Shown here: positions 2,634 to 27,090 of the stretch, one piece after another
Layout of the letters: every line of letters starts with the position of its first letter
Position numbering within the stretch: the stretch's first letter is position 1
NCBI RefSeq assembly: GCF_024171815.1
Contig: NZ_JAMTCJ010000003.1
Location: 1,085,155 to 1,149,154, forward strand
Direction: 5' to 3'
DNA length: 64,000 nucleotides
Source: Williamsia maris
GTDB taxonomy: Bacteria > Actinomycetota > Actinomycetes > Mycobacteriales > Mycobacteriaceae
Made by a program: the position numbers and the translations under genes
Notes under the pieces: generated by a model
What the model was told of the DNA's origin: nothing
Seen by the model: the letters and a program-made list of their open reading frames with translations, nothing else
Databases searched by the model: none

Positions 2634-2696
2634 GGGCGGATGCGGACGTCGACTGGGCGGATGCGGACGCCGAGTGGGCGGGCCCGGACTAGGTCG
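2634..2696. repeat. 21-bp tandem repeat array A (convergent junction)
   Basis: Three units of exactly 21 bp start at 2634, 2655 and 2676. The first two share GGGCGGATGCGGACG; the third is degenerate after GGGCGG. The array begins 14 bases after the stop of the CocE-like gene and runs over the stop of the converging gene (2689-2691). With the base before it, the core reads (C/T)GGGC on the sense strand of the left gene. Arrays B, C and D have the same period, core and placement but different unit sequences. Function unknown; termination is a reasonable guess. Confidence 0.8.
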
Positions 2697-3630
2697 GGCG
2701 CGCGACGCAGCGGCTCGCGAAGTCGATGATCTCGCGCGCCACGTCGCCCGAGATCTCCGGTTCGTTGTGGACCTCGTGTCGGAACCCGGTGTAGACGCGG
2801 GTCCGGACATCGCCGTGACCGGTGCGGACGAGCTGATTGGCCACGCGGTAGGCACCCTCACCGAAACCCGTGACCGGGTCGGCGTCGCCGGCCAGGATCA
2901 ACACCGGTAGGTCACCGCGGACCGACGGGTACCACTCGTCGGCGTTGGCCGCGTCGTACAGATCGACGAAGCCGGCGAGGAACCGCACCGACATCGGCGC
3001 ACCGAAGTTGTTCAGCGGATCGACGGCGTGGTCGCGGACCACGTCGGGGTCACGGGCCACCCAGGCCGTCGGACCGGAGCCGGGTTCGTAGCGTGCGATG
3101 AACCCGTCGAACATCGACGCCACGTAGGCCTCCGGCGCCGGCGCCTCGGTGTCGGCCTCGGCCGACAGGGCCTGCCGGTCCAGCAGGTTCTCGATGCCGT
3201 GGATGCCGGCCGCGATGCCGCACAGGATCAGCCCGTCGACCTGTTCGCTGTCGCCGCTGACGAGGCCGCGCGCGATCATCGACCCCCAGGAGTGACCGAA
3301 GATCACGTACGGCAGGTCCGGGTGCAGTTCGCGCGTGATCGACCGCAGGGTGCGTTCGTCGACGACGACGACCCGGTCGGCGTGATCTCCCGCGTCGGCC
3401 CAGATCCCGGAGGTCATCGCGGTCTTGCCGTGACCGGCGTGGTCGTCCGCCGCGACGACGAAACCTGCGTCCAGCAACGCGGTGATCAGCGGGAGATAAC
3501 GTCGCGAGTGCTCGCCGAGCCCGTGGATCAGCTGCACGATCCCCCGCGCCGGTCGGACCGGCTCGTAGATCCAGCCGTAGACGGTGTCGCGCTGATTGCT
3601 CGACGTGAACTCGACCTCGCGAAGTGACAT
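2689..3630 (-). CDS. Alpha/beta hydrolase, monoacylglycerol lipase-like
   Basis: A 313-residue serine hydrolase of the Hydrolase_4/monoglyceride lipase type. It has an HGLGEHSRRY oxyanion segment (residues 36-45), nucleophile Ser114 in GHSWGS, acid in GDADP (~251) and His285 in RHEVHNE. No signal peptide or membrane segment is visible, so it is probably cytoplasmic. Mycobacterium has a lipase-like gene (lipG) in the same ribosomal-protein neighbourhood; equivalence is an inference. It is transcribed towards the CocE-like gene and its stop lies inside repeat array A. Confidence 0.85.
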   Translation of the reverse strand: MSLREVEFTSSNQRDTVYGWIYEPVRPARGIVQLIHGLGEHSRRYLPLITALLDAGFVVAADDHAGHGKTAMTSGIWADAGDHADRVVVVDERTLRSITRELHPDLPYVIFGHSWGSMIARGLVSGDSEQVDGLILCGIAAGIHGIENLLDRQALSAEADTEAPAPEAYVASMFDGFIARYEPGSGPTAWVARDPDVVRDHAVDPLNNFGAPMSVRFLAGFVDLYDAANADEWYPSVRGDLPVLILAGDADPVTGFGEGAYRVANQLVRTGHGDVRTRVYTGFRHEVHNEPEISGDVAREIIDFASRCVARPT

Positions 3631-3696
3631 CTTCGGCTCCTAGCGCATCCATCCGGTGACGTCGTCACGCTAACAGCGCGGGCGGGCCGAATCCGT

Positions 3697-4209
3697 TCAG
3701 CGCACCGCGATCCCGCTGTCGGTGAGGATCACGCGGTAGACGAATCCGGCTTCCGGGCCGAGTACGTCGGTGACCAGCTCGATCAGGGTCGTCGCGAACC
3801 GGGGACCGTGCGCGGCATGGCCGGGTTCGATCAGATGGTGCGCCAGCTCGTGCAGCACCACGAGCTCGCGCAGCGCCCACCGTCCGTCGGCCATCTCCGG
3901 CAGGGCGATGGTCGGCGGGAGCGAGGGATCAGCGGGCGATTCGTAGTGCGCGCTGCGATGACCACGACGCGAGCGCACCTCGACATCGATCGTCGCGCGC
4001 GGGAAGAGGCGACGGACCGAGTCCCGGGCGAGCACCTGCACGATGTAGCGCCGCGCCGACTCCACCGAGCCGAATCGCGCCTCGGGCGGCAGGGTCAGAT
4101 GTGCCCCGGCGATCTCGACGCTGGGTCCCGGCGCCGCGAACAGGTTGTGTACGGCCGACTCCGCCTCGTAGAACAGCGCGCGCTGGGTGTCGCGCGGAGG
4201 ACCGGTCAT
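3697..4209 (-). CDS. SprT-like metallohydrolase (TIGR04338 family)
   Basis: A 170-residue protein with a zinc-peptidase motif HELAHH (residues 120-125) followed by HAAHGPRF, where His134 is the likely third metal ligand. This matches the actinobacterial TIGR04338 metallohydrolase family, whose substrate is unknown. The ATG (4207-4209) overlaps the upstream gene's stop as ATGA, so translation is probably coupled. No signal peptide is seen. Pairing with a DUF2786 gene recurs in actinobacteria to my knowledge, suggesting a shared job. Confidence 0.8.
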   Translation of the reverse strand: MTGPPRDTQRALFYEAESAVHNLFAAPGPSVEIAGAHLTLPPEARFGSVESARRYIVQVLARDSVRRLFPRATIDVEVRSRRGHRSAHYESPADPSLPPTIALPEMADGRWALRELVVLHELAHHLIEPGHAAHGPRFATTLIELVTDVLGPEAGFVYRVILTDSGIAVR

Positions 4210-5066
4210 CGGTGGTCCAGCGCCCCCCGGGTGCCGTCGAGTTCCTCCGGAGCCCCGATCCGTGCCCGACGGCCGGCGCGGTCCCCGGCACGTCGAGCCG
4301 CCTCGGAGTACCCGGCCGACGCACTCGAGCCACGCCAGGTCCCCCGGGCGGTCGACTCCTCGCGATGGAAGTCGACGACGGCGATCTCCTTGTCGCGCAA
4401 CGCCACCTGCGTCGATGCACCCGGGCGGTCGACGGATTCGCGTACCGCGTCGGCCCGCGCCTCGTCCCTCGCCTCGGTCAGTCGCAGCCCGATCCGCTCG
4501 GCGAACGCCGACTGGAAGTTGAGCCGCGCGGTGATCGGCGACAACGGGGTGTGCTCGACGATGCGGCGCGTCCGCCACCGCGATCGGTCGGTGACGACCT
4601 TGGCCGCGGTCTCGGACCGGTAGTCCCCCGACTTCAGGTAGGCGTCGCTCGCCGCGACCATCTGCACGACCAGCGAGCTGTAGAGCGCCTCGGTGCTGTC
4701 GATGTCGCCCGAGAAGCCATACGCGAGAACGAATGTGGAGTTGCTCGCCACGTCGACCTTGATGTCGTTGGCGTGGGCGATGGCCACGAACAGCGCCACA
4801 TAGGTGCGTAGACCCCGCTTGCCCGCGGTGCCGATCGCGATCTGCCGGGCCACCGGCGCCGTGTGCGCCGCGGCCGGGTCGTGCGCACGTGCGACGGCGA
4901 GATCTATCGAGGCCGACGTCGCCAACCGCTGTGCCGCCTGCATGAAGGTCTGCGCCTCGTGCTCGTTGTCGGTGCCCTCGGCCTGGCGCAGGAGACCGGC
5001 GATACGGGTCAGGAGTTTGTCGTCGCGCATGGGGATAAGACTACTGAGAGCGCCGGACGGTTCCAT
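4206..5066 (-). CDS. DUF2786 domain-containing protein
   Basis: A 286-residue protein starting with a DUF2786-like helical segment (DKLLTRIAGLLRQAEGT, about residues 15-31) and a central region rich in Ala, Arg and Glu. The C-terminal ~60 residues are basic and probably disordered. The function of the family is unknown. ATG 5066 is preceded by CAGGTG at suitable spacing; the internal ATG at 5030 lies nearer the conserved segment and is an alternative. The stop overlaps the metallohydrolase start by four bases. Confidence 0.75.
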   Translation of the reverse strand: MEPSGALSSLIPMRDDKLLTRIAGLLRQAEGTDNEHEAQTFMQAAQRLATSASIDLAVARAHDPAAAHTAPVARQIAIGTAGKRGLRTYVALFVAIAHANDIKVDVASNSTFVLAYGFSGDIDSTEALYSSLVVQMVAASDAYLKSGDYRSETAAKVVTDRSRWRTRRIVEHTPLSPITARLNFQSAFAERIGLRLTEARDEARADAVRESVDRPGASTQVALRDKEIAVVDFHREESTARGTWRGSSASAGYSEAARRAGDRAGRRARIGAPEELDGTRGALDHR

Positions 5067-5130
5067 GGTTCACCTGTCAGGATGAAACGGACATCCCGCC
5101 GTCCTCACCGACCGATCGGAGCGTGATCCG

Positions 5131-5808
5131 ATGGCGACCTTCCTGCTCATCCCCGGCGGCGGCTCCGACCCGTCCTACTGGCGAATCCTGGTGTCGGAGT
5201 TGGCCGATCGCTCCCATCGGGTGGTCCCCATCGACCTCCCCTGCGAGGACGACGACGCCGATCTCACCGACTACGCCGCCGCCGTCGCCGCCCAGACACC
5301 CGCCGACACCGACCGGCCGATCGTCGTCGCCCACTCGTTCGGCGGCTTCACCGCGCCGCTCGCCTGTCCCCTGGTCGACGCGTCGATGCTGGTCTTCGCC
5401 TCGGCGATGATCCCGCGACCCGGTGAGCGACCCGAACAATGGTGGGCCGCCACCGGTACGGCGCAGGCCCAGCGCGACGCCGCGGCGACGCAGACCTACG
5501 ACCCCGACGACATGGATGCGTTGTTCTACAACGGGGTGGCGCCGGAGATCGTCGCCGAGCAGATCGAACGCACTCAGTCCGACACCCCCGCGACGCAGAT
5601 CTGGCCCGCGTCGGCCCTGCCGGACGTCGAGACCCGGTTCCTGCTCTTCCGCGACGACCGGTTGTTCCCCGAGCCGTTCATGCGACGTGTCGTCGCCGAC
5701 CGCCTCGGCGTCGAACCCGACGTCATCGGCGGTGGCCACATGGCGATGTTGTCGCACGCGGGTGAGTTCGCCGACCACCTCGACGGGTTGGTCCGGCGGC
5801 CGGGTTGA
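5131..5808 (+). CDS. Alpha/beta hydrolase
   Basis: A 225-residue compact hydrolase with an LIPGGGSDP oxyanion segment near the N-terminus, nucleophile Ser69 in VAHSFGG, and a C-terminal His203 in GGHMAML. It resembles small esterases and salicylate-ester-type hydrolases; no specific substrate can be assigned. GGAG eight bases before ATG 5131 supports the start. The gene is divergent from the DUF2786 gene (64-base gap) and converges on rplA through a strong hairpin. Confidence 0.8.
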   Translation: MATFLLIPGGGSDPSYWRILVSELADRSHRVVPIDLPCEDDDADLTDYAAAVAAQTPADTDRPIVVAHSFGGFTAPLACPLVDASMLVFASAMIPRPGERPEQWWAATGTAQAQRDAAATQTYDPDDMDALFYNGVAPEIVAEQIERTQSDTPATQIWPASALPDVETRFLLFRDDRLFPEPFMRRVVADRLGVEPDVIGGGHMAMLSHAGEFADHLDGLVRRPG

Positions 5809-5818
5809 CCCGGAGACG

Positions 5819-5855
5819 GCAACAGCCGCGACGCTCGAGGCGTCGCGGCTGTTGC
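5819..5855. terminator. Bidirectional hairpin terminator
   Basis: A perfect 16-bp stem (5819-5834 with 5840-5855) closes a 5-base loop between the stops of the hydrolase and rplA. Neither side has a run of T, as is common for high-GC terminators. The position between convergent genes suggests it serves both. Confidence 0.75.
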
Positions 5856-5873
5856 GCTGTACAGATCAGACGA

Positions 5874-6587
5874 TCAGACGTCGTCTTCGGTGTAGTTCCG
5901 GTTACGCGCCGGGTCGACCGGGATACCCGGGCCAGACGTGGTCGACACGGTCACCTTGCGCAGGTAGCGACCCTTCGAGGCCGACGGCTTCGCACGGAGG
6001 ACCTCGTCGAGGGCCGCGCCGTAGTTCTCGGCGAGCTGGCGCTGGTCGAACGACGCCTTGCCGATCACCAGGTGCAGGTTCGAGGCCTTGTCGACACGGA
6101 AGTTGATCTTTCCGCCCTTGATCTCGTTGACGGCCTTGGTGACGTCGGGCGTCACGGTGCCGGTCTTCGGGTTGGGCATCAGACCGCGCGGGCCGAGGAC
6201 GCGTGCGATGCGTCCGACCTTGGCCATCTGATCCGGGGTCGCGATGGCGGCGTCGAAATCGAGCCACCCGCCCTGGATCTTCTCGATCAGGTCCTCGGCG
6301 CCGACCTCGTCGGCACCGGCGGCGGTGGCCTCGGCGGCCTTGTCACCGACGGCGAACACGATGACGCGGGCGGTCTTACCGGTGCCGTGCGGCAGGTTCA
6401 CGGTGCCGCGGACCATCTGGTCAGCCTTGCGGGGGTCGACACCGAGACGGATCGCGACCTCGACGGTCGGGTCGTACTTGGTCGACGCCGTCTCCTTGGC
6501 CAGCCCTGCAGCCTCCAGCGGGCTGTACAGGTTGTCCTTGTCGATCTTCTCGACGGCGGCCTGGTAGGCCTTGCTCTTCTTGCTCAT
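5874..6587 (-). CDS. rplA: 50S ribosomal protein L1
   Basis: The 237-residue protein has the full L1 fold, including [12 protein letters not shown] and the signature around [17 protein letters not shown]1 binds 23S rRNA at the exit-side stalk and in many bacteria represses the L11-L1 operon. The start [12 protein letters not shown] at 6587 fits the family; a longer open frame upstream is not conserved-looking. It follows rplK by 112 bases on the same strand. Confidence 0.95.
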
Positions 6588-6699
6588 ACGGTGCTTCTTT
6601 CCTTCTCCGCAGCGGTTGCGGATTGGTGGTGTGCGGACCGAAGCCGGTCCTCCCACGCTCTCGAGTTCGTCGCCGGCGGACACCGGCGGCGAGGGGTTC

Positions 6700-7131
6700 C
6701 TAGGTGACCGTGATGCCCATCGACCGAGCGGTGCCTGCGATGATCTTCGCGGCCTGCTCGACGTCGTTGGCGTTGAGGTCTTCCTGCTTGGTCTTGGCGA
6801 TCTCACGGACCTGGTCCATGGTGACCTTGCCGACCTTCTTGACGTGCGGCTCTCCCGAGCCCTTCTGCAGTCCGGCCGCCTTGAGCAGCAGCTTGGCCGC
6901 CGGAGGGGTCTTCAGCTTGAAGTCGAACGAGCGGTCTTCGTAGACCGAGATCTCGACGGGGATGACCGTGCCACGCTGCGACTCGGTCGCGGCGTTGTAC
7001 GCCTTGCAGAACTCCATGATGTTCACGCCGTGCTGACCGAGCGCCGGACCCACGGGCGGGGCGGGGTTGGCCGCACCGGCCTGGATCTGGAGCTTGATGA
7101 TCCCGGCGAGCTTCTTCTTCTTGGGGGGCAT
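6700..7131 (-). CDS. rplK: 50S ribosomal protein L11
   Basis: A 143-residue L11 with the usual N-terminal [13 protein letters not shown] segment and C-terminal RNA-binding domain ending ARSMGITV. It forms the GTPase-associated centre with 23S rRNA. Length and start are those of the family. It lies between nusG and rplA in the classical order. Confidence 0.96.
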
Positions 7132-7238
7132 CTCTCTTTAACCTTTGTGTTGTCTCTGTGTGTGCCGGGTTCGAGAACCGATCGCACCGGTCCATCTCGC
7201 CTGGCGTATCGCGCCCGCTGGAGACGCGAAGTCTGTTG

Positions 7239-8066
7239 TTAGATCTTTTCCACCTGGGCGAAGCCGAGCTCGACCGGGGTCTCGCGACCGAAGATCGAGA
7301 CGAGCACCTTCACCTTGCGCTGCTCGGCGTTGACCTCGGAGATCGACGCGGGCAACGTGGCGAACGGGCCGTCCATGACGGTGACCGACTCGCCGACCTG
7401 GAAGTCGACCTCGATGGTCGGCGACGCCGACGCACCGATGCCGCCCTCGGAACCACCCGAGGACTTGCCCGCGGCCGGCTTCTTCGCCTCGACGCGGGGC
7501 AGCAGGAACTGCAGGACTTCCTTCATCGACAACGGCGACGGCTTCGAGGTCATTCCGACGAAGCCGGTGACACCCGGGGTGTTGCGCACGGCGCCCCACG
7601 AGTCGTCGTTCAGCTCCATGCGCACCAGGATGTAGCCCGGCAGCACCTTGCGCTGGACCTTCTTCGGCTGGCCGTTCTTGATCTCGGTGACCTCTTCGGT
7701 CGGCACTTCGACCTGGAAGATGAAGTCGCCGACGTCGAGGTTCTGCACGCGGGTCTCGAGGTTGGCCTTCACCTTGTTCTCGTACCCGGCGTAGGAGTGG
7801 ATGACGTACCAGTCGCCGGGGGCGCGACGGAGCTCCTTCTTGAGCTCCTCGACCGGGTCGACCTCTTCTTCCTCGGCGACGGGCGCTTCCGCGTCCTGCG
7901 CCGGGGCTACGACATCGTCGGAAGCGTCGATGGAACCCGCGACCGCCTCGGTCAGTTCCTCGGTGGCGGCCACGTCGACCGGTGCGTCCAGTACGTCGGT
8001 GCCGTTCTCGATGGCGTCGATGTCGGCTTCCTGGATGCTCTCGGTGTCATGCTCGGGGGTGCTCAC
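7239..8066 (-). CDS. nusG: Transcription termination/antitermination factor NusG
   Basis: The 275-residue protein has an acidic N-terminal extension of about 90 residues rich in Asp, Glu, Ala and Val, then the NGN domain ([15 protein letters not shown] onward), a linker with [10 protein letters not shown], and a C-terminal KOW domain ([12 protein letters not shown]). The long acidic extension is normal for actinobacterial NusG. GTG (8064-8066) is the start; an AAAGGGAG lies about 11 bases upstream, so spacing is loose. It couples RNA polymerase to Rho and ribosomes. Confidence 0.95.
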
Positions 8067-8142
8067 TGCAGCCCACGCTCCCTTTCAATACGGTCGTGCT
8101 CGCACCCGGCGCGGTGCGCGGATGAGTGTGTGGTCGGTCGGC

Positions 8143-8571
8143 TCAGCCGAACAACCAGAGGACAGCTTTCGCGAAGCCCAGGTCGATGCCGGAGATGAAC
8201 GCCGTCATGACGATCACGAAGATCAGCACGATGATCGTGTAGCGGACCATCTCCGACCGGCTCGGCCAGATGACCTTCTTGAGCTCGCCGACGACCTGCT
8301 TCAGGAAGATCCACAACCGGATGAACGGGTTGCGGCTCTGGTCCGTCGCGGTCGACGAGCGCGACGAACGCTCCTTGAGTGCGACGCTCGACGCGGTGTC
8401 CGCCTCGCTGTCCGGCGCGGTGTTCCGCTTGCCGCGCGGAGTGGACGACCGCTTGCCCGTCGGCCGGGCCGCGGTCTCGTCGGTGAGAACGTCGGCGGCG
8501 TCGGTGACGCCGTCGGTGGCTTCGGCCTCGGGGGTTCCCTTGGCGCGTGCAGCTCTGTCGCGCTTGCTCAC
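8143..8571 (-). CDS. secE: Preprotein translocase subunit SecE
   Basis: A ~142-residue SecE with a long basic, disordered N-terminus (about 95 residues) and the conserved C-terminal ELKKVIWPSRSEM followed by one membrane segment. This is the standard actinobacterial form. Two adjacent GTG codons (8571 and 8574) are possible starts. AGAGGA at 8579-8584 gives better spacing to 8571, which I chose. It lies between tRNA-Trp and nusG, as in mycobacteria. Confidence 0.93.
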   Translation of the reverse strand: MSKRDRAARAKGTPEAEATDGVTDAADVLTDETAARPTGKRSSTPRGKRNTAPDSEADTASSVALKERSSRSSTATDQSRNPFIRLWIFLKQVVGELKKVIWPSRSEMVRYTIIVLIFVIVMTAFISGIDLGFAKAVLWLFG

Positions 8572-8601: not shown

Positions 8602-8674
<73 letters not shown>

Positions 8675-10532: not shown

Positions 10533-10606
<74 letters not shown>

Positions 10607-10644
10607 ATGGCCGCCCAGGCCGGCGACGGTCTGGGAGTCCAGCG

Positions 10645-10717
10645 AGCCCCCTAACGGAATCGAACCGTTGACCTTTTCCTTACCATGGAAACGCTCTACC
10701 GACTGAGCTAAGGGGGC
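10645..10717 (-). tRNA. tRNA-Thr (anticodon GGT)
   Basis: Seventy-three bases with a perfect GCCCCCT/AGGGGGC acceptor, anticodon stem TTTCC/GGAAA around loop ATGGTAA, and T arm GGTTCGATTCC. It lies 38 bases upstream of tRNA-Met and is probably co-transcribed with it. Confidence 0.94.
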
Positions 10718-10885
10718 GGGACCCGGAGCATCTTGCGACGCCCCGAGAGCCTTAACGAGATTACACAGCCGCCTGCGCAGTCGCCAAATCGCTGGGATCC
10801 GACGCCGTCGAGACGGTGCCTCTCTCTGTATTCAGGCAGCTCACAAGGGATTCGAAGGTGAATTCGAGGATCCCAGGTGAGGTGG

Positions 10886-10966
10886 TGGCACGTGTAGGAT
10901 TCGAACCTACGTAGCTTGCGCGACGGATTTACAGTCCGCTCCCATTGGCCGCTCGGGCAACGTGCC
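10886..10966 (-). tRNA. tRNA-Tyr (anticodon GTA)
   Basis: Eighty-one bases with acceptor GGCACGT/ACGTGCC, anticodon loop CTGTAAA and a long variable arm, as expected for class II tRNA-Tyr. The T arm GGTTCGAATCC is intact. Gap 10718-10885 to tRNA-Thr and gap 10967-11143 to the next gene show nothing further. Confidence 0.94.
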
Positions 10967-14876: not shown

Positions 14877-16127
14877 GTGACCTCCGACCGTTCTGTCCCC
14901 ACCCACGCCGATGTGCTCGTCGTCGGCGCGGGTCCGGGCGGTTCGGCGGCCGCCGCGCATGCAGCGTCGGCGGGCCGCGAGGTGGTCCTGCTCGACGACG
15001 CGGTGTTCCCCCGCGACAAGACCTGCGGTGACGGGCTGACCCCGCGCGCGGTGGCCGAGATGGATCGGCTCGGACTGGGCGAGTTCCTCTCGACGCGGCC
15101 CCGGATCGTCGGGTTGTCGATGCGCGGCTGGGGCGCCAGCCAGCAGATCCGTTGGCCCTCAGGCAGATTCCCGGAACACGGCAGCGCGGTGGCACGCACC
15201 GAACTCGACGACCGCATCCGACACGTGGCACTCGATCGCGGCGCGCGAATGGTGCAGGGCACCAAGGCGGTCGGAGTCGAGATGCGTGATGGCGCTGTAC
15301 ATTCCGTCGTCGTCGAGGGTGACCAGGGCCGCTCGGAGATCCGTGTTCGCCAGCTGATCATCGCCGACGGGGTGCGCTCGACGCTGGGGCGCGAACTCGG
15401 TCGCGAGTGGCACCGCGACACCGCCTACGGCGTGGCCGCGCGCGCATACGCGACATCGGGTCGGGCCGACGACACCTGGATGGGCTCGGACCTCGAACTC
15501 CGCGACGGCGCAGGCGAATTGCTCCCCGGGTACGGCTGGGTGTTCCCGCTCGGCGCGGAGAGCGGATTGGTCAACATCGGCGTGGGCGCGCTGGCCACCG
15601 GCAAGCGGCCCGCACACATGGCGTTGCGTCCGATCGTCGATCACTACAACAACTCGCAACGCGAGCGGTGGCAGATCACCGGCGATCCGATGCGGGTCAC
15701 CTCGGCACTGCTGCCCATGGGAGGTGCGGTCTCCGGGGTCGCGGGGCGCAACTGGATGCTCATCGGCGACGCCGCGGCGTGTGTGAACCCGCTCAACGGT
15801 GAGGGCATCGACTACGCACTGGAGACCGGACGGATGGCCGTCGAACGGCTCGATGAGACCGATCACACGTCTGCGTGGCCTGCCGTTCTCACCGAGCACT
15901 ACGGGACGGCGTTCTCCGCCGCCCGCCGCCTCGCCGGTGTGCTGACGTTCCCGCAGGCGGTTCCGGTGCTCGGCCGACCGGGCATCCGCTCGGCGGCGTT
16001 GATGTCGATGGTCGTGCGGGTGATGGGCAACTTGATCACCCCGGAGGACGGCGATCTGCTCGCGCGCGCGTGGCGGGTGGCCGGCTCGGCGTCGGTCCGC
16101 CTGGACCACCGCCCGCCCTTCGTCTGA
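14877..16127 (+). CDS. menJ: Menaquinone reductase (geranylgeranyl reductase family)
   Basis: A 416-residue FAD enzyme with the dinucleotide-binding GAGPGGS (17-23), a DKTCGDGLTP segment, and a distal GDAAACVNPLNGEGI FAD contact. It matches Rv0561c (MenJ), which saturates one isoprene of menaquinone, giving MK-n(H2). The GTG at 14877 is preferred because the protein then begins ten residues before the FAD motif and a -10 box sits just upstream. Its stop is followed directly by repeat array B. Confidence 0.88.
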   Translation: MTSDRSVPTHADVLVVGAGPGGSAAAAHAASAGREVVLLDDAVFPRDKTCGDGLTPRAVAEMDRLGLGEFLSTRPRIVGLSMRGWGASQQIRWPSGRFPEHGSAVARTELDDRIRHVALDRGARMVQGTKAVGVEMRDGAVHSVVVEGDQGRSEIRVRQLIIADGVRSTLGRELGREWHRDTAYGVAARAYATSGRADDTWMGSDLELRDGAGELLPGYGWVFPLGAESGLVNIGVGALATGKRPAHMALRPIVDHYNNSQRERWQITGDPMRVTSALLPMGGAVSGVAGRNWMLIGDAAACVNPLNGEGIDYALETGRMAVERLDETDHTSAWPAVLTEHYGTAFSAARRLAGVLTFPQAVPVLGRPGIRSAALMSMVVRVMGNLITPEDGDLLARAWRVAGSASVRLDHRPPFV

Positions 16128-16134: not shown

Positions 16135-16272
16135 CGTCAGTTGGGCACGTAAACCCGTCAGTTGGGCACATAGACCCACCGATTGGGCACCTGCTCGACA
16201 GGTGAGAGCCCCGATGCCCACTCAGTGGGCTTATCTGCCCAACTGGCGGACTTTGTTGCCCAACTGGCGGGG
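16135..16272. repeat. 21-bp tandem repeat array B, mirror-symmetric
   Basis: TTGGGCA occurs at 16141, 16162 and 16183, spaced exactly 21 bp. After a spacer the reverse complement TGCCCA(A/C) occurs at 16215, 16236 and 16257, again 21 bp apart. The forward half starts within ten bases of the menJ stop and the inverted half ends at the menG stop (16274). Each converging gene thus runs into TTGGGCA copies on its own sense strand. Flanks read GTCAGTTGGGCAC and TGCCCAACTGGCGG. Proposed role: two-sided termination. Confidence 0.85.
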
Positions 16273-16273: not shown

Positions 16274-16972
16274 CTACTTCGTGGCGTAGTGCAGCGCGGC
16301 GATGCCGCCGGTGAGGTTGCGCCAGCGGACGTTGCCGAAACCGGCGGCGGTGATGCGCTCGGCGAGACCGGCCTGATCAGGCCACGCCCGGATCGACTCG
16401 GCGAGATAGACATACGCCTCGGGGTTGCTGGCGACGCGCGTGGCCACCGGCGGCAGCGCCTTCATCAGGTACTCCATGTACAGCGTCCGGAACGGTCCGA
16501 ACACCGGCGTCGAGAACTCGCAGATGACCAGTCGCCCATTCGGTTTGAGCACCCGCTGCAGCTCGGCGAGTGCGGTGTCGACGTTCGCGACGTTGCGCAG
16601 GCCGAAGGAGATGGTCGCGGCATCGAAGCTCTCGTCGGCGAAGGGCAGCGTGAGCGCGTCGGCGGCGACCTTGGGCACCGGCCGACGGTGGCCGGCCTTG
16701 AGCATGCCGAGGGAGAAGTCGGCCGCGATGCAGTGCGCACCCGACTGCGCGAGTTCCTCGGTCGAGACCGCGGTCCCGGCGGCCAGGTCGAGCACCACGT
16801 CGTCGGGTCCGAGTGCCAGCGCGCGGCGAGTCGCCTTCCGCCAGCCGCGATCCTGACCGAACGAGAGCACCGTGTTGGTGATGTCGTAGCGGCGGGCGAC
16901 ACCGTCGAACATGGCGGCGACGTCGGCCGGCTTCTTGTCCAGTCCGGCGCGGCCCACTGAGGTCGAGGTCAT
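16274..16972 (-). CDS. menG: Demethylmenaquinone methyltransferase
   Basis: The 232-residue protein has the UbiE/MenG pattern: [23 protein letters not shown] motif VLDLAAGTA (about 60-68), [18 protein letters not shown] and a C-terminal [12 protein letters not shown]. It performs the last methylation of menaquinone. ATG 16972 was taken over the longer frame to 17023 because family similarity starts there. It lies downstream of mgtA on the same strand, as Rv0558 follows Rv0557. Confidence 0.93.
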
Positions 16973-21345: not shown

Positions 21346-21430
21346 GACGCCAGCCTGCGACGACGACCCGACCCTATTCAGGCACAGTCGGTACTACCCT
21401 GCGCCGTCGCGTAGCGCGCACACTCGGGAC

Positions 21431-22279
21431 ATGGACAAGCAGGAGTTGGGCGCCTTCCTCCGCAGCCGACGCGAGCGCCTCCGACCTGAGGACGTGGGGC
21501 TGCCTGCGGGACCTCGCCGACGCACGCCGGGTCTACGACGCGAGGAGGTCGCCGTTCTCGCGCACATCTCCACCGAGTACTACGTACGGCTCGAACAGGG
21601 CCGAGCCCCACGCCCGTCGGCAGATGTGCTCGCCGGGATCGCCGGAGCGCTCCGGCTCACCGGTCCCGAGTCCACGCATCTCCATCTTCTCGCCGGCACC
21701 GCCCCGAACCGATCGGGGCTGCACTCTCGGCAGGTCCGACCGAGCATCGCCGAACTGCTGCACCGCATTCCGGCGACCGCCGGGTTCGTGATCTCCGCCG
21801 CGTTCGACGTACTCGCCTGGAACGATCTCGCCGCGGCGCTGATGGAGGACTTCGGCGCCCGCACCCCGGACGACCGGAATCTGGCCCGGAACGCCTTTCT
21901 GTCGGGAGTGCCCGACGGCGAGGCGCTGTACGGCATCTCCGACGCCGCCGAATTCCGACAGAGCGTGGTGATGGAACTACGAACTGCATCGGCTCGCTAT
22001 CCCGATGACCCCTCGATCCGGACGCTCGTCGACGAACTCCGCAGCGGCAATGACGAATTCGCACGTCTCTGGGAGCGCAATGACGTGCAACCGCCATCGA
22101 TGCTGACCAAGACCTTCACTCACCCCATCGTCGGCCGGCTCACCCTTGACTGCGATGTCCTACATCTCGCCGACCGTGACCAGCATCTGGTGCTGTACAC
22201 CGCGCCGGTCGGATCCTCCGCTGCCGAGAGCCTGGCTTTCCTGGGAGCGCTCGGCGCCGACGGCATCGCGGCCCGCTGA
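21431..22279 (+). CDS. HTH regulator with MmyB-like ligand domain
   Basis: A 282-residue regulator with an N-terminal Xre-type HTH (RTPGLRREEVAVLAHISTEY, then RPSADVLAGIAGALRL) and a C-terminal MmyB/PAS-like domain (about 105-275) thought to bind a small molecule. ATG 21431 is the conserved start; the open frame runs far upstream without similarity. Its divergent SDR neighbour is the obvious regulated gene. Array C follows it. Confidence 0.85.
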   Translation: MDKQELGAFLRSRRERLRPEDVGLPAGPRRRTPGLRREEVAVLAHISTEYYVRLEQGRAPRPSADVLAGIAGALRLTGPESTHLHLLAGTAPNRSGLHSRQVRPSIAELLHRIPATAGFVISAAFDVLAWNDLAAALMEDFGARTPDDRNLARNAFLSGVPDGEALYGISDAAEFRQSVVMELRTASARYPDDPSIRTLVDELRSGNDEFARLWERNDVQPPSMLTKTFTHPIVGRLTLDCDVLHLADRDQHLVLYTAPVGSSAAESLAFLGALGADGIAAR

Positions 22280-22318
22280 GCACTGCACATGGCCACGACG
22301 CCTGCGAGCAGGTCAGGA

Positions 22319-22436
22319 GTTGGGGTCGACGTGCCCAACTGACGGCGTTACGTGCCCAACTGGCGGGGCTACGTGCCCAACTGGCGGGGTTACGTGCCCA
22401 ACTGGCGGGGTTGCGTGCCCAACTGGCGGGGTCACC
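22319..22436. repeat. 21-bp tandem repeat array C
   Basis: TGCCCAA occurs at 22332, 22353, 22374, 22395 and 22416, exactly 21 bp apart, in near-identical units (GTGCCCAACTGGCGGGGTTAC). On the minus strand, the sense of the cytochrome b gene ending at 22432, this reads TTGGGCAC and begins within the stop codon context TGACCCCGCCAG. The unit core is shared with array B. One degenerate TTGGGG on the plus strand (22320) faces the HTH gene. Confidence 0.85.
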
Positions 22437-23085
22437 CCCGCGATGCGTCGGAGTCGGGCGTGCTGTCACCGGCGGCCACCTCGTCGGCCCAGGCGCCGTG
22501 CTCGGTCTGGGCCCACCACTCCGACACCGACCCGGTGCGCATCCCGCGTCGCGCCTCGGCGTCACCGAGCGCCATCGCGATGTGCCCGAGCACCAGGATC
22601 CCGACACCGAGCGCGAACCAGTCGTGGGCGAACGTCGCGCCCGACCGGTACGACAGGCCCACGAGGCTGGGGAAGTACATCAGCACCCCGGTCCCGAAGA
22701 GCACGACAATCGACCCGGCCTGGAGTGCACCGTTGAGTTTCTGGCCGGCGTTGAACTTGCCGACCTGGATGGTGCCGTCGCGACGAGTCCTGCTGCGCAA
22801 CCACTTCCAGTCGGTCGGCAGGAAACGGTTGAGCCGACGCAGGTCGTCACGGTAGCCCGGCGACGCCAATCCGAGGATCAGCGGGACCGGCAGCGCGAAG
22901 CCGGCGTAGACGTGCACGATCTCGATGAGGTGGCGGTTGCCGACGAGAATGGCCAGCGACGAGACGTAGAGGAACGCGGCGGTGACGATGCAGATGATCA
23001 TCAGGACCGTGACCGACCAGTGCACCGCGCGGGCCGTCCGGCCGAAGCGCGGGAGGTCACTCGTCGATGGTGCCGTCGAGCTCAT
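22432..23085 (-). CDS. Cytochrome b561/b6-type membrane subunit
   Basis: A 217-residue protein with four predicted membrane segments and His residues placed as haem ligands (TARAVHWSVT, IEIVHVYAGF, TFAHDWFALG, LGHIAMALG). It overlaps the end of the molybdopterin oxidoreductase gene by 29 bases, so the two should form one membrane complex, like MsrPQ-type or sulfite-oxidase-type pairs. The C-terminus is acidic and cytoplasmic. Confidence 0.8.
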   Translation of the reverse strand: MSSTAPSTSDLPRFGRTARAVHWSVTVLMIICIVTAAFLYVSSLAILVGNRHLIEIVHVYAGFALPVPLILGLASPGYRDDLRRLNRFLPTDWKWLRSRTRRDGTIQVGKFNAGQKLNGALQAGSIVVLFGTGVLMYFPSLVGLSYRSGATFAHDWFALGVGILVLGHIAMALGDAEARRGMRTGSVSEWWAQTEHGAWADEVAAGDSTPDSDASRG

Positions 23086-23767
23086 ATCCGCGCCTCTCCC
23101 AGTAGCCGGGGATCTCCTCGGTCGTCAGCTCGATCCCCGACAGCCACTTCGTGCTCTTGTATCCGTACTGCCCACCGACATACATCCGCACCGGCCCACC
23201 GTGGTCGTGGGTGACCGGGGCGTCGAGCATGCGCAGCGCGACCAGGCAGTCGGCGCGGCGCGCCTTGTCCAGCGGGAGGCTCTCGGTGTACGTGCCGTCG
23301 AACGATCGGAACCGCACCGCGGTCGCGCCGGGGCGCGGGGCGGCGCGGTCGATCAGCGTCGACAGCGTGACACCGGTCCACGCGACGTCGGGGACCCGCC
23401 AGCCGGTGACGCAGTGGAACGTCTCGGTCAGGTCGGTCTGCGGCATCCGCTGCAGATCGGTCAGCGAGTACGTCCCGGGGGTGGCGACCTCGCCGCCGAC
23501 GGTCAGGCTGTAGTCGCCCGCGTCGCGCTCGGGCACCGACCCGACCACCGAGTAGAACCGGAAGGTGTCGCCGAGCGGGAGGAGCGCGACCAGTCCGGTC
23601 GGGTCGTTGGCCATCACCGGGGCGAGCCAGCGCGACAACGCGTTCTGCGCCTCGGATCCCGCCACGACACCGACGGCACCGAGCCCGACGAGACCGAGAA
23701 AGATGCGGCGTCCCACCGGTTTTCCGTGCGACGGGCCCACGCTCGGGTTCTCGGATGAGCCGGGCAT
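23057..23767 (-). CDS. Tat-exported molybdopterin-dependent oxidoreductase (YedY/MsrP-like)
   Basis: A 236-residue protein with a twin-arginine signal (VGRRIFLGLVGLG, about 18-30) and a sulfite-oxidase-fold Mo-cofactor domain. The presumed molybdenum-ligand Cys is in FHCVTGW. HDHGGPVRMYVGGQYGYK near the C-terminus is typical of the family. Known relatives reduce methionine sulfoxide in the envelope; substrate here is unproven. Partner of the overlapping cytochrome b gene. Confidence 0.82.
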   Translation of the reverse strand: MPGSSENPSVGPSHGKPVGRRIFLGLVGLGAVGVVAGSEAQNALSRWLAPVMANDPTGLVALLPLGDTFRFYSVVGSVPERDAGDYSLTVGGEVATPGTYSLTDLQRMPQTDLTETFHCVTGWRVPDVAWTGVTLSTLIDRAAPRPGATAVRFRSFDGTYTESLPLDKARRADCLVALRMLDAPVTHDHGGPVRMYVGGQYGYKSTKWLSGIELTTEEIPGYWERRGYELDGTIDE

Positions 23768-23771
23768 GGGG

Positions 23772-23963
23772 CTAGCGGAGACGCCCGCGTGCGCCGAAGA
23801 CGATCATCACGACACCGACGATCACCACGATCGGGCCCGCGATGGACCAGAAGACGGTGTTGCTCATCGCACTGCCTTCCAGGACACCGATTCCTTGGAG
23901 GAAAAAGACAAATCCGAACAGGGTGATGATGACCCCCGCGACCAGGTAGACCGGCTTGCGCAT
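23772..23963 (-). CDS. Small two-segment membrane protein
   Basis: A 63-residue protein with two hydrophobic stretches (YLVAGVIITLFGFVFFLQGI and IAGPIVVIVGVVMIVFGA) and a basic C-terminal tail ARGRLR. GAGGAG six bases before ATG 23963 supports the start. It sits 4 bases upstream of the molybdoenzyme gene, so is likely co-transcribed. No family name that I can assign with confidence. Confidence 0.7.
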   Translation of the reverse strand: MRKPVYLVAGVIITLFGFVFFLQGIGVLEGSAMSNTVFWSIAGPIVVIVGVVMIVFGARGRLR

Positions 23964-24001
23964 GGATACTCCTCGCGAGGTGGGCGACGCGACTGCGTCG
24001 T

Positions 24002-24463
24002 TCACGATCCTACGCGCGGCATCAGATGTCCTACGCGGTCCGCGGCGAGCCGCTCGAGCAGCGGCACACACAGCATGATCAGTCCGCGCTCGGTCTCGTC
24101 AAGGTTGTGCGCGACGGCCTCCGCGAGCCACTCGTCGCGTTTGGCCCGGTCGTCGAGGAGTAGTTCCCGACCCGCGTCGGTGAGTTCGACGAGCTGGCGC
24201 CGACGGTCGTCCGGATCGGTGCGCCGGACGATCAACTCCGCGTCGTCGAGCTTGTTCATGCTCACCGTCAGCGACTGCACGCGGACGTGCATGCGGGCGG
24301 CGAGGTCGGCGACGGTGGTGGTCCCGGACCGGTCGAGGTAGCCCAGCACCGTGACCTGCGTGAGCGTCAGGCCGTGGTCGCCGCGATGCAGGCGGGCGGC
24401 CCGCGCCACCGACATGATCGCCTCACGCAGCCGGGTCGCCTCGTCCGTGTCGATCGCCGTCAT
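24002..24463 (-). CDS. MarR family transcriptional regulator
   Basis: A 153-residue winged-helix regulator: TLTQVTVLGYLDRSG, recognition region VADLAARMHVRVQSLTVSMNKL and wing RTDPDDRRRQLVELT. MarR dimers usually repress a divergent gene and themselves. Its start codon is overlapped by TACCAAG, also found as an inverted repeat before the divergent transporter-like gene. Confidence 0.87.
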   Translation of the reverse strand: MTAIDTDEATRLREAIMSVARAARLHRGDHGLTLTQVTVLGYLDRSGTTTVADLAARMHVRVQSLTVSMNKLDDAELIVRRTDPDDRRRQLVELTDAGRELLLDDRAKRDEWLAEAVAHNLDETERGLIMLCVPLLERLAADRVGHLMPRVGS

Positions 24464-24546
24464 ACCAAGAAGATAACGCAGACAACGTCACCGACGGACC
24501 GAAAGGTCCGGTTCGCGTCCGTGGAATACCAAGAGTAAGCTTGGTA
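24463..24546. promoter_or_regulatory. Candidate MarR operator region
   Basis: TACCAAG (24527-24533) and CTTGGTA (24540-24546) form a perfect 7-bp inverted repeat with a 6-base spacer, three bases before the plus-strand ATG. A single TACCAAGA copy (24463-24470) covers the marR start. Both genes have a hexamer resembling a -10 box about seven bases before their ATG (TAAGCT at 24536, and TTATCT on the minus strand), so transcripts may be leaderless and blocked directly by the repressor. Confidence 0.6.
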
Positions 24547-24548
24547 AA

Positions 24549-25670
24549 ATGCTGCTGCGCTGGTCGGGACTGATCCTTCTCACCGCTGTCGCATCGGTCG
24601 GCCTGGAGTTGTTGTCGGTGCCGTCGGCGGCCCTGTTCGCGGGACTCGTGATCGCGGCCGCGCTCGCTCTGGCCGGTCTGGCGCCGCGGGCCCATGGCGA
24701 CCGACCCCCGATGCCCCGACCATTCGGCCTCGCGGCGCAGGGCGTCCTCGGCGTCTACATCGGCACGATGGTCTCCCCCGACGTCCTCACCGGACTCGGC
24801 TCCGCGTGGGTACCGGTGGTCGTGGTCGCGGTGGGGACCCTGGCGCTGTCGGTGGGCGGCGGCGCGCTGCTCGGACTGCACCGCAAGGTCGACCCGCTGA
24901 CCGGGTCGCTGGCCCTCGTCGCCGGCGGCGCCTCCGGACTGGTCGCCCTCACCCGCGAACTGGGCGGCGACGAACGCATGGTCGCGGTGATCCAGTACGT
25001 CCGGGTCGGGCTCGTGACGGTGACCATGCCGATCGTGGCGACGGTCGTGTTCAACGCCCACACCGGATCCGGCTCCGGAGGCGGCATCTCCGCATCCGTC
25101 CTCGGCACCGACGGTATCGGTCCGCAACTCTGGGGACTGTTGCTGACCGCTGTGTGTATGGGCGTCGGCATCACCCTCGGTCGCGTCGTCCGACTCCCCG
25201 CCGCGGGCCTGCTGGGCCCGTTGGTGCTGACGGTGATCGCCGAGCTGACCGGCATCGCCGGATCGGCAGCGGTCCCGTTGGTCCTGGTGACGCTCGGTTA
25301 CGCGATCATCGGCTGGCAGGCCGGACTCGGGTTCACCATGGACAGCCTGCGCGCGATCGGCCGCGTCCTGCCGTACGCCGTGGGCCTGATCATCGCGATC
25401 GGCGTCGGCAGCGCCGGCCTCGGCGTACTGCTCAGCCTGTGGACCGGCGAATCCATGTTCGACTCCTACCTGGCGACCACCCCGGGAGGTATCTACGCCG
25501 TGTTGGCGGCCGCGGCGGCCGCCGGGTCGAACATCACCTTCGTCGTCGCCGCGCAGATCGTCCGTGTCCTGCTGATGCTGTTCATCGCGCCCGCCGCGGC
25601 GCGGCTCTACCAGCGCTTCCGCAACCGGAACGTCGTCGCCGAACCCGAGATGGCCGACTCGACGACGTGA
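24549..25670 (+). CDS. AbrB-type membrane protein (duplicated AbrB domain)
   Basis: A 373-residue protein with about ten hydrophobic segments arranged as two repeats (FGLAAQGVLGVYIGTMVSP and VLVTLGYAIIGWQAGLGFT mark the repeats). It belongs to the AbrB/putative ammonia monooxygenase membrane family, probable transporters of unknown substrate. The name AbrB is historical; there is no DNA-binding domain. Divergent from, and probably controlled by, the MarR gene. Confidence 0.78.
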   Translation: MLLRWSGLILLTAVASVGLELLSVPSAALFAGLVIAAALALAGLAPRAHGDRPPMPRPFGLAAQGVLGVYIGTMVSPDVLTGLGSAWVPVVVVAVGTLALSVGGGALLGLHRKVDPLTGSLALVAGGASGLVALTRELGGDERMVAVIQYVRVGLVTVTMPIVATVVFNAHTGSGSGGGISASVLGTDGIGPQLWGLLLTAVCMGVGITLGRVVRLPAAGLLGPLVLTVIAELTGIAGSAAVPLVLVTLGYAIIGWQAGLGFTMDSLRAIGRVLPYAVGLIIAIGVGSAGLGVLLSLWTGESMFDSYLATTPGGIYAVLAAAAAAGSNITFVVAAQIVRVLLMLFIAPAAARLYQRFRNRNVVAEPEMADSTT

Positions 25671-25703
25671 CCGACCCTCGGGGTGCCCGACTAGGGTCAG
25701 GGC

Positions 25704-26957
25704 ATGACTGATTCCAGCCGCGAATTCGACGTCGTCGTCTTCGGAGCCACGGGCTTCGTGGGCATCCTGACCGCCAAGTACCTGGCCGAACACGCTCCCG
25801 CCGGGACGCGCGTCGCACTCGCCGGGCGCACCCAGGCCAAGCTCGAGAAGACCCGCGCCTCGTTGCCCGTCGCCGCGAAGGACTGGCCGCTGATCGTCGC
25901 CGACGCCGACTCCCCCGCATCTCTCGACGCGATGGCCGCGCGAACCCGCGTCGTCTGCACCACGGTCGGCCCCTACCTCAAGTACGGCGAGTCCGTGCTC
26001 GCCGCGACCGTCAACGCCGGCTCCGACTACGTCGACCTGACCGGCGAGGTCCCGTTCGTCCGACTGTCCATCGACAAGTTCGGCGAGCAGGCCGCGTCCA
26101 ACGGCGCCCGCATCGTCCACTCCTGCGGTTTCGACTCCGTGCCGTCCGACATCGGCGTCTACCTGCTCTACCGGGCGGTCACCGAGGCCGACGCCGGCGA
26201 ACTCACCGACACCACGCTCGTGGTCTCGTCGTTCAAGGGTGGCTTCTCCGGCGGCACGATCGACTCCATGCGCGTCATCGCGCACGAGGCGAAGGACCCC
26301 GCCACCCGGCGCACCCTGCTCGACAAGCACGCGCTGTCGACCGGCCCCGGCGAGCACCGAACGAAGCGGCCCTCGGAGCCCAGCGACACCCTGATCGTCA
26401 ACGCCAAGACCGTCGACCCGTCGCTGTCGGGAACGCTGGCGCCGTTCGTGATGGCCTCGCACAACACCCGCATCGTCCGCCGCACCAACGCGCTTCTCGA
26501 CAACGCCTACGGCGATCGGTTCCGCTACGGCGAGGCGATGTCGGTGGGCAGCATCCCCGGTGTGTCGACGGCCGTGGCCGGCCTCGTCGCCGGTGGGATG
26601 GGCGCGTTCCTCGGCGCGATGGCGTTCACCCCCACCCGCAAGCTGCTCGACCGCATCCTGCCGAAGGCGGGCGACGGTCCTAGCGAGAAGGCCCGTGACG
26701 CAGGGCATTTCACCTGCGATGTGTACACCACCACCACGACCGGCAAGCGTTTCCGTTCCCGGGTGCGCGCGAGCGGCGACCCCGGTTACAAGGCCACCGC
26801 GGTGATGCTCGGCGAGAGCGCTCTCGCGTTGGCCCTCGATCGTGACCGACTGCCCGACCGCTCAGGTGTGCTCACCCCGGCGGCCGCGATGGGCGATGTC
26901 CTCGTCGACCGTCTGCGTGATGCGGGCATGACGCTCACCGCCGAGCAGACCAGCTGA
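25704..26957 (+). CDS. Saccharopine dehydrogenase-like / trans-acting enoyl reductase family protein
   Basis: A 417-residue protein with an N-terminal Rossmann motif (FGATGFVG, 13-20), GRTQAKLE, and VGPYLKYGESVLAA. It matches the mycobacterial Rv2449c/Rv2953 family, where Rv2953 acts as an enoyl reductase in phthiocerol/phenolglycolipid synthesis. No polyketide synthase is near, so that role is not implied. It follows the AbrB-like gene by 33 bases and is followed by array D. Confidence 0.8.
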   Translation: MTDSSREFDVVVFGATGFVGILTAKYLAEHAPAGTRVALAGRTQAKLEKTRASLPVAAKDWPLIVADADSPASLDAMAARTRVVCTTVGPYLKYGESVLAATVNAGSDYVDLTGEVPFVRLSIDKFGEQAASNGARIVHSCGFDSVPSDIGVYLLYRAVTEADAGELTDTTLVVSSFKGGFSGGTIDSMRVIAHEAKDPATRRTLLDKHALSTGPGEHRTKRPSEPSDTLIVNAKTVDPSLSGTLAPFVMASHNTRIVRRTNALLDNAYGDRFRYGEAMSVGSIPGVSTAVAGLVAGGMGAFLGAMAFTPTRKLLDRILPKAGDGPSEKARDAGHFTCDVYTTTTTGKRFRSRVRASGDPGYKATAVMLGESALALALDRDRLPDRSGVLTPAAAMGDVLVDRLRDAGMTLTAEQTS

Positions 26958-26966
26958 CCCCACCGG

Positions 26967-27090
26967 TTGGGCCGTCCTTCCCGCGCGTTGGGCCGTTGTT
27001 CCCGCGCGTTGGGCCGTTGTTCCCGCGCGTTGGGCCGACGATGGGTCGCCACCAGGAGAAGAGCCCAACGCGACGCGAATGAGGGCCCAG
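26967..27090. repeat. 21-bp tandem repeat array D with inverted tail
   Basis: TTGGGCC occurs at 26967, 26988, 27009 and 27030, exactly 21 bp apart, in units like TTGGGCCGTTGTTCCCGCGCG. The array begins ten bases after the plus-strand gene stop. GCCCAA (27063) and GCCCAG (27085) follow in inverse orientation towards the convergent phosphatase. The core and period equal those of arrays B and C, while the remaining 14 bases of the unit are unrelated. Confidence 0.82.

Follow-up and report, generated by a model that had tools for sequence, protein, structure and literature searches.

Polar, helix-phased 21-bp repeat arrays at gene 3′ ends in Williamsia, putative sites for a DNA-binding protein

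What are the short tandem arrays that separate convergent genes in Williamsia maris, and why do they keep an exact spacing? The window analyzed here is a 64,000-nucleotide stretch of a W. maris contig. A sequence-only reading of it had described four arrays at convergent junctions with an exact 21-bp period, a TGGGC-type core and a start within about 15 bases of a stop codon, and had guessed at a protein-bound or RNA-based terminator. Taken as a whole, that interpretation was partly supported. When positions were checked in the window sequence, the 21-bp step was present in all four arrays, and all four lie between convergent genes, with stops at 2619|2689, 16127|16274, 22279|22432, and 26957|27108. 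This confirmed the basic claim, and the pattern proved far larger than the window.

The first array (2634..2696, + strand) consists of about three units of CTGGGCGGATGCGGACGTCGA with GGGC at 2634, 2655, and 2676. It is in sense with an X-Pro dipeptidyl-peptidase family gene (Peptidase_S15; 586..2619, +) and faces an alpha/beta hydrolase gene (Hydrolase_4; 2689..3630, −). Here the TGGGC-type core proposed for all four arrays takes the variant form C/GTGGGC, which defines a family of its own (family C) that recurs in five of eight genomes of the genus Williamsia. Between a FAD-binding oxidoreductase gene (14877..16127, +) and a ubiE/COQ5-type methyltransferase gene (16274..16957, −), a family-A array at 16135..16230 (+), in sense with the oxidoreductase gene, carries TTGGGC at 16141, 16162, and 16183 and an in-register degenerate copy at 16225. 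It is opposed, at a core-to-core distance of 54 bp, by a family-A array at 16216..16272 (−) with GCCCAA at 16237 and 16258 and a degenerate copy at 16216, which is in sense with the methyltransferase gene (stop 16274).

The third array, also of family A (22329..22432, −), has five copies of GCCCAA at 22333, 22354, 22375, 22396, and 22417 and lies in the 3′ flank of, and in sense with, a cytochrome b561-like gene (22432..23025, −; stop 22432). The facing gene encodes an HTH regulator with an MmyB-like ligand-binding domain (21431..22279, +). The claimed proximity to a stop codon needs a correction at this junction. The array belongs to the minus-strand gene, which explains why 9 nt separate it from the right stop and about 50 nt from the left stop. 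An exact TTGGGC was not found on the + strand at 22320..22325, where the opposing side is represented by a single degenerate core, TTGGGG, 13 bp in front of the first of the minus cores; opposed cores this close could pair with each other. The fourth array, of family B (26966..27037, +), has TTGGGC at 26967, 26988, 27009, and 27030 and is in sense with a gene for a 417-aa protein (25704..26957, +) that gave no Pfam match and has relatives in Williamsia, Gordonia, Rhodococcus, and others. Opposing minus cores at 27063..27090 (GCCCAA at 27063, a degenerate copy near 27085) begin 33 bp away, core to core; the convergent gene here encodes a low-molecular-weight phosphotyrosine phosphatase (27108..27620, −).

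Across eight Williamsia genomes, we counted 635 same-strand pairs of TTGGGC at 21 bp, as opposed to 15 at spacings of 11-20 bp and 28 at 22-31 bp (43 over all twenty). The reversed pattern gave 33 pairs at 21 bp, and in the W. maris genome the corresponding counts were 147 versus 4. At the other spacings, reversed matches outnumbered forward ones (223 and 136 versus 15 and 28) because the reversed word is itself more frequent; the fair control is therefore other spacings of the same word. In a 464-kb sample, made up of the window and 20 stretches spread across the genome, same-strand pairs up to 100 bp apart occurred only at 21, 42, 63, and 84 bp (30 in total, 20 of them inside the window itself). 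At loci that had been picked for carrying arrays, neighboring cores (≤70 bp) were exactly 21 bp apart in 113/120, 56/59, and 17/19 cases in three genomes. The exact period is a property of the main array families; a minor one runs at 22 bp.

Adjacent fillers differ at a mean of 5.1 of 15 positions (n = 186), and indels are far rarer than substitutions. Filler families are common to arrays within one genome, and the core is retained while fillers diverge between families and species. Depletion of TTGGGC in coding DNA was not clear (93 observed versus 102 expected under a fourth-order Markov model; in 60 permutations the rank, counting from zero, was 10). The proposal that spacing and core are under selection, with the cores facing one side of the helix, held up, and it is strengthened by the phasing of opposed arrays described below.

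The scan also spoke to placement, since arrays at random positions had been named as the result that would overturn the earlier reading. Random positions were not seen: 48 of 55 array calls in the W. maris genome lie behind a gene and in sense with it, and the same orientation to the upstream gene was found for 20/23 and 10/10 calls in two further genomes. Among the seven exceptions, some are intragenic or gene-calling errors. Sense arrays started 6-16 nt past the stop in 31/48 cases in W. maris and in 8/20 and 3/10 cases in two relatives; this close spacing is clear in the former and less so in the latter. A convergent gene faces 42 of the 55 calls, as the earlier reading would have it, but the remaining 13 are followed by a co-directional gene, and at one locus (L119) the array ends up only 11 nt ahead of that gene's start codon. 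The element is therefore a mark of gene 3′ ends, most of them convergent. Several arrays (e.g. L113, L132, and L137) are one-sided, with no opposing partner. A fixed polarity of sites located past gene ends is what a protein roadblock terminator calls for, and the arrays show it.

What is new here is a shared helical register: the distances between opposed arrays fall on a 10.5-bp lattice. We measured the phase distance from the last TTGGGC to the first GCCCAA at a junction, having first noticed the lattice in 21 distances with one core mismatch allowed. For the first set of 31 groups, a scan over periods did best at 10.5-10.75 bp, and at 10.5 bp R was 0.81 with p 1.5e-9, a p-value not independent of discovery since the discovery loci are also in this test. 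At most junctions the GGGC and GCCC centers are a near-integer number of turns apart, with 26/31 at most 1.5 bp off the lattice. Eight new groups from later loci gave R 0.89 and p 0.0017, with a phase of 2.18 versus 2.5 in the first set; this later set was not blind, as the spacing was already visible for four of the eight groups, and the other four alone gave p 0.05. All 39 groups combined gave R 0.82 and p 4e-12. Loci L167-L186 were chosen from listed pairs, and under a rule of at least three cores per group L167 and one L275 pair were dropped. Because some isolated pairs of five genomes (G001, G002, G003, G005, and G006) had been left out of the phase groups, we repeated the test on only those three genomes for which every pair was listed. 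There, 25 junction groups with distances up to 66 bp gave R 0.88 and p 4.6e-9, and the half-unit steps alone gave p 0.0015 (10 groups); for the W. maris genome by itself, 22 groups gave p 1.2e-6. Half-steps had initially been weak (p 0.022, n = 10) and later reached p 0.005 or 0.0005 (n = 13). A large share of the lattice signal lies in whole 21-bp steps, which unit decay could produce. Opposed pairs were not in excess over reversed-pattern matches (63 versus 234 at gaps of 0-30, 114 versus 222 at gaps of 31-60); spacing alone, not number, sets them apart.

Arrays persist at orthologous junctions despite filler turnover. Six orthologous locus pairs in two species carry arrays at both members, and at a seventh (L104/L133) the array was kept while its family switched from A to B. 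Unit number differs even between close relatives: one junction in the window has 4 and 1 exact cores where its counterpart L009 has 6 and 5, with flanks 84-90% identical. A second array family (family D), of other sequence, opposite polarity, and equal period, was found by pattern search in 17 of 301 genomes of the bacterial family, and its pair number is sporadic between species (0 to 271). Its polarity was reversed relative to the main-family orientation in 58/66 cases. Family D is phased as well: its 12 groups, all but one of which come from other genera, gave R 0.78 and p 6e-4 with an optimum at 10.5-10.6 bp, and half-steps alone gave p 0.22 (n = 5). In 18 stretches (0.35 Mb) from other genera, TRF found no 21-bp repeat at a convergent junction; the intergenic tandem repeats that it did report had various periods, with 21 bp at two loci (L151 and L159).

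We then asked what accompanies the arrays. Counting short-loop strong stems with the array cores masked, we found strong hairpins in 4/46 array-bearing versus 11/18 array-free convergent gaps (Fisher p 3.4e-5, which is optimistic because orthologous junctions, and some gaps that reflect gene calling, are among those counted). An earlier count with other limits (4/43 versus 8/33, p 0.11) was not significant because the array-free group still included weak arrays. With so few short-loop GC-rich stems in array-bearing gaps, the intrinsic hairpin terminator was rejected as an identity for the arrays. Two terminator-like hairpins bracket the arrays at L104/L133, so at that junction the arrays cannot be the primary terminator. 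At gathering scores, Rfam matched only four tRNAs in the window and nothing at the arrays. Families A and D gave no plasmid or phage matches, and such an origin was set aside. Predicted curvature (wedge model, compared with 200 shuffles) was above nearly all shuffles at 22330-22432 and 26966-27090, borderline at L184 (0.025) and L126 (0.095), and without excess in 16135-16272, 2626-2689, and L187, and is thus inconsistent from array to array.

No named element for these arrays was found in the open-licence PubMed Central literature. CRISPR arrays have identical repeats of about 30 bp, unique spacers, and adjoining cas genes; the Williamsia arrays, with head-to-tail units of 21 bp whose fillers are related and which recur at many scattered loci, do not fit this identity. 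Plasmid iterons are initiator-bound, helix-phased direct repeats near 21-22 bp, which the 21-bp step resembles, but they serve one origin, whereas the Williamsia arrays occupy many chromosomal gene ends. The dispersed loci, and the lack of a Rep domain in the eight genes next to the window's arrays, led us to reject an iteron origin. Roadblock termination by a DNA-bound protein is exemplified by Reb1 in yeast. In passages of PMC10310618, DNA-bound LacI halts RNA polymerase in E. coli. Next to these cases, the Williamsia arrays would be many dispersed, oriented, phased multi-site targets of a putative protein. As portrayed in parts of PMC3733652, REP/BIME elements are dispersed extragenic repeats 3′ of genes, often convergent ones, that form opposed pairs and have proposed roles in termination and supercoiling, a likeness the arrays share in dispersal, extragenic position downstream of genes, and opposed pairing. 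REPs are, however, palindromic and 20-40 bp long, carry GTAG or CGTC at an end, and are frequently linked to RAYT transposases, whereas the arrays are 21-bp direct repeats on a helical lattice. Membership was rejected on a unit-composition table, from which the palindrome was judged: 220, 96, and 36 units show a one-sided core, variable filler, and no such constant end tag. The TAACTGA repeats of Beggiatoaceae also form genome-wide, gene-oriented intergenic direct-repeat sets, but in the excerpted text of PMC4679880 they have a 7-bp unit and lie mostly directly upstream of start codons rather than past stops, and the word "convergent" is absent there. Passages of PMC5217627 describe uptake-sequence terminators and other spaced motif pairs as opposed word copies at 3′ ends, some of them between convergent genes; these are single spaced pairs, of which those made of uptake sequences form an RNA hairpin, and phased tandem arrays do not appear in those passages.

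The core with its 21-bp step, the fixed polarity past stops, the lattice, the arrays at orthologous junctions, and the few hairpins point to phased sites for a DNA-binding protein, a putative roadblock terminator between convergent genes, a reading we consider an even call. Such a protein would bind the core GTTGGGC, together with a C that is conserved roughly one helical turn upstream of it, cooperatively along one DNA face at sites two helical turns apart, and might stop or release RNA polymerase coming from the upstream gene. Head-to-head halves would protect both convergent genes, and the filler families would be the sequence that is tolerated where the protein makes no contact, homogenized via local duplication. 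The co-directional followers, L119 above all, are awkward for a strict terminator. More tentatively, a lineage-specific protein may polymerize in a fixed direction along the arrays, so that opposed filaments meet in register as a bidirectional boundary that has largely replaced hairpins.

It is unlikely that the arrays are instead topology sites, functional analogues of REP/BIME that wrap or load gyrase or a nucleoid protein, which would absorb positive supercoils between convergent genes. Convergent 3′ ends, symmetric phased arms about a short center, and the co-occurrence with hairpins at L104/L133 would suit this role, and parts of PMC3733652 place REPs likewise commonly between convergent and unidirectional genes and report E. 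coli REPs as gyrase targets; yet a site with a purely topological role would not be expected to keep a fixed polarity relative to the gene, one-sided arrays occur at several loci, and modeled curvature is inconsistent. Action at the RNA level, with + and − arrays pairing into long bidirectional hairpins or offering repeated sites to an RNA-binding protein, would explain sense polarity after the stop, head-to-head arrays as inverted repeats, and the scarcity of ordinary hairpins beside them. We judge it quite unlikely, as a 10.5-bp lattice matches the helical turn of DNA and would serve no evident purpose in an RNA loop, one-sided arrays cannot fold so, family D presents the opposite strand in sense, and the arrays lack an Rfam match. 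The RNA-based half of the earlier terminator guess is thus disfavored by the lattice and the partnerless arrays; the protein-bound half is what we infer. Selfish or neutral repeats, grown by slippage and spread among tolerant gene-end gaps with core and period inherited rather than selected, would fit the unit-number turnover, shared filler families, and sporadic copy number of family D. That account is very unlikely given the core kept amid diverged fillers, the rarity of indels, the lattice of opposed arrays including its half-unit steps, and polarity fixed in two families.

The protein-site reading makes a sharp prediction, that 5-bp shifts break arrays and 10-bp shifts do not, and the array itself can serve as bait sequence for finding the binding protein. 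Bacterial termination is taught as a matter of RNA hairpins and Rho; a polar, helix-phased, hairpin-poor element points either to proteins as the means of separating convergent genes or to a topology site dedicated to these junctions.

The four 21-bp arrays with a TGGGC core that the sequence-only reading had placed at convergent gene ends (2634-2696, 16135-16272, 22319-22436 and 26967-27090) were all found at those positions, and each lies between convergent genes according to the ORF list and to our own gene calls, which used a codon-periodicity model trained on the sample. Of its two flanking stops, the third array is near the right-hand one rather than the left-hand one. The Rfam search gave no match at the arrays; elsewhere in the window it identified four minus-strand tRNA genes, at 8602-8674 and 10533-10966. 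Searches of open-licence PubMed Central papers turned up no description of these arrays.

Across the W. maris genome that holds the window, TTGGGC(N15)TTGGGC occurs 147 times versus 4 for the reversed pattern. All eight Williamsia genomes contain it (30-147 copies each; 635 in total versus 33 reversed), and a search of relatives found at most 5 copies in each of 53 genomes outside the genus. Among 301 genomes of the family, GTTGGGC(N14)GTTGGGC was counted 24-132 times in each of the 8 Williamsia genomes and 0-3 times in each of the other 293. Other spacings of TTGGGC pairs are nearly empty in the eight genomes, with 15 matches at 11-20 bp and 28 at 22-31 bp. Same-strand pairs within 100 bp in a 464-kb sample including the window all lie 21, 42, 63 or 84 bp apart (30/30), the window alone supplying 20 of the 30. 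At loci picked for holding arrays, nearest cores up to 70 bp apart were separated by exactly 21 bp in 113/120, 56/59 and 17/19 cases in three genomes, and adjacent fillers differ at a mean of 5.1 of 15 positions. Since the core step stays at 21 bp while fillers diverge, indels are very rare relative to substitutions.

The units share (C/T)TGGGC or TTGGGC, mostly preceded by G, and a C six bases upstream; because they were found by the core itself, only the flanking positions are independent evidence. By filler, they were sorted into families A (ACGTAACNNCCGCAG), B (CCTCGTTCCCGCGCG), C (GGATGCGGACGTCGA; in five of the eight genomes), E (GGCAGGAACCGTCTG; prominent in genome G007) and the minor family D (GGGCACGGTCGGCGGGTTG), which has a 22-bp period. 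Family D in turn pointed to a relative of 21-bp period in other genera, present in 17 of the 301 family genomes, with 54 pairs in G144 and 271 in G280, a member of another genus. Most sampled members of the genus of G280 have none, and the abundance in G280 (loci L187 and L207-L216) may come from a burst in the recent past or from a factor specific to that species. Separately, an inverted short pair, TTGGGCGC...GCGCCCAA, is similar in three species (G000:C3:635122, G001:C1:2365853 and G005:C165:23594) and apparently lies outside arrays.

Arrays have a consistent polarity. In the W. maris genome, a co-directional gene precedes the array in 48 of 55 classable array calls, and the next gene is convergent in 42 and co-directional in 13, counts in which a nested call at locus L129 was entered twice; for comparison, convergent junctions make up 81/396 in the sample. 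The array is in sense with the upstream gene in 20/23 calls in genome G004 and 10/10 in G007. The first core lies 6-16 nt past the stop in 31/48, 8/20 and 3/10 cases in W. maris, G004 and G007, respectively; one value among the distances (-788) is an artefact of gene calling. Family D follows the same rule on the opposite strand, with 58/66 array calls lying behind a gene that runs in the direction of the GCCC strand. A layout with gene X between two arrays (A>, + array, X>, - array, <B) recurs.

Small genes were also seen between outward array pairs, at L126:4183-4737, L138:4116-4670 and L124:4224-4640; that in L126 encodes a DUF308 protein and that in L124 a DUF11/CARDB protein, and the L126 layout, including both arrays, is kept in a second species (L138). 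In L119 (11495-11601) the last core is 11 nt upstream of the probable start of the following co-directional gene's coding sequence, and in L140 (3968-4079) it is 21 nt upstream, so that a promoter would have little space outside the array.

Seven of ten G004 loci align with a W. maris locus at the same junction, with arrays on both sides of the comparison (L126/L138, L119/L140, L123/L136, L110/L139, L128/L142, L129/L141 and L104/L133); the W. maris loci were mostly chosen for their arrays, so this fraction is no conservation rate. L141 shares its array at one of two junctions, and at the second W. maris has different DNA and no array. L104/L133 carries family B in one locus and family A in the other. 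The G007 array at L146 is missing from the corresponding gap in L101, which is 8 bp long. More units, on both sides, are present at the 26957 junction in a relative whose flanks are 84-90% identical. The protein of the conserved neighboring gene (25704-26957) is 98% identical to one from a Williamsia metagenome genome, 83-85% identical to those of W. serinedens, W. deligens and an uncultured Williamsia and, among the matches listed, at most 73% identical to the remaining records. W. maris also has ∼2 kb extra, with two more genes, between X and one array (L128:1273-4022 versus L142:3907-4781); this DNA, absent from the other species, is an insertion within the array-bounded interval.

For + arrays that face - arrays, the spacing between the final exact TTGGGC and the first exact GCCCAA falls into clusters at 13-14, 23-25, 33-35, 45, 52-56, 64-66, 75-77, 86 and 97 bp, which places the GGGC and GCCC centers near-integer turns apart (1.05, 2.0, 3.05, 4.1, 4.95, etc.). 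A first set of 44 junctions, collapsed to 31 orthology groups, gave a phase concentration R of 0.81 on a 10.5-bp lattice (p ∼1.5e-9), with the best scanned periods at 10.5-10.75 and the observed value never reached in 20000 jitter trials; 26 groups lie within 1.5 bp of the lattice, and the five worst deviate by 2 to 3.5 bp. Eight further groups from later loci gave R 0.89 (p 0.0017) and a phase of 2.18 versus 2.5 in the first set, although four of their spacings were known beforehand and the other four alone give p 0.05. All 39 groups together yield R 0.82 (p 4e-12). A test restricted against the choice of loci (G000, G004 and G007, distances up to 66 bp, opposed pairs accounted for) gave R 0.88 in 25 groups (p 4.6e-9), and p 1.2e-6 for the 22 groups of W. 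maris alone. Opposed pairs as such do not outnumber matches to the reversed pattern (63 versus 234 at gaps of 0-30, 114 versus 222 at 31-60); the signal is their spacing. In family D, whose 12 groups all have the reverse order (- then +), R on the 10.5-bp lattice is 0.78 (p 6e-4); G003 supplied one of these groups, at 22 bp, and genomes of other genera the remaining 11.

Because 21-bp steps could stem from decayed units around one fixed spacer, the half-steps are decisive. Alone they gave p 0.022 (n=10), in the enlarged set p 0.005 or 0.0005 by two ways of picking the group member (n=13), and in the restricted set p 0.0015 (n=10); those of family D were too few (p 0.22, n=5). Spacings of ten orthologous pairs differ by 0.19, 1.9, 2.0, 2.0, 2.29, 4.1, 5.9, 6.19, 9.05 and 16.29 turns, eight of them within 0.2 of a whole turn, although one of these eight is just a 2-bp change; the 9.05-turn change equals 4.5 units.

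Strong short-loop hairpins were counted in convergent gaps of 45-350 bp with cores masked. In the sample and window they occur in 11/18 gaps without arrays and in 1/6 that carry arrays; gaps at array loci, orthologs included, have them in 4/46 (Fisher p 3.4e-5 versus 11/18). Setting aside three probable gene-call gaps and one family C array leaves hairpins in 10/14 array-free gaps. When hairpins had been counted earlier with shorter loops and a lower score limit, the result was 4/43 versus 8/33 (p 0.11); weak arrays were then still present in the array-free group. Hairpins and arrays occur together at L104/L133, where two hairpins flank the arrays.

As described in published accounts, REP/BIME elements, roadblock termination, TAACTGA repeats and uptake-sequence terminators resemble the arrays in one or two traits apiece and differ in another. 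Iterons likewise have one or two traits in common and differ in another. That the arrays are topology sites is the main rival to a protein terminator; an RNA element or neutral repeats fit less well. Taken together, the helical lattice, the polarity and placement of the arrays and the rarity of hairpins beside them match an array of DNA-bound protein, and we infer that such a protein would bind the arrays and end or block transcription there.
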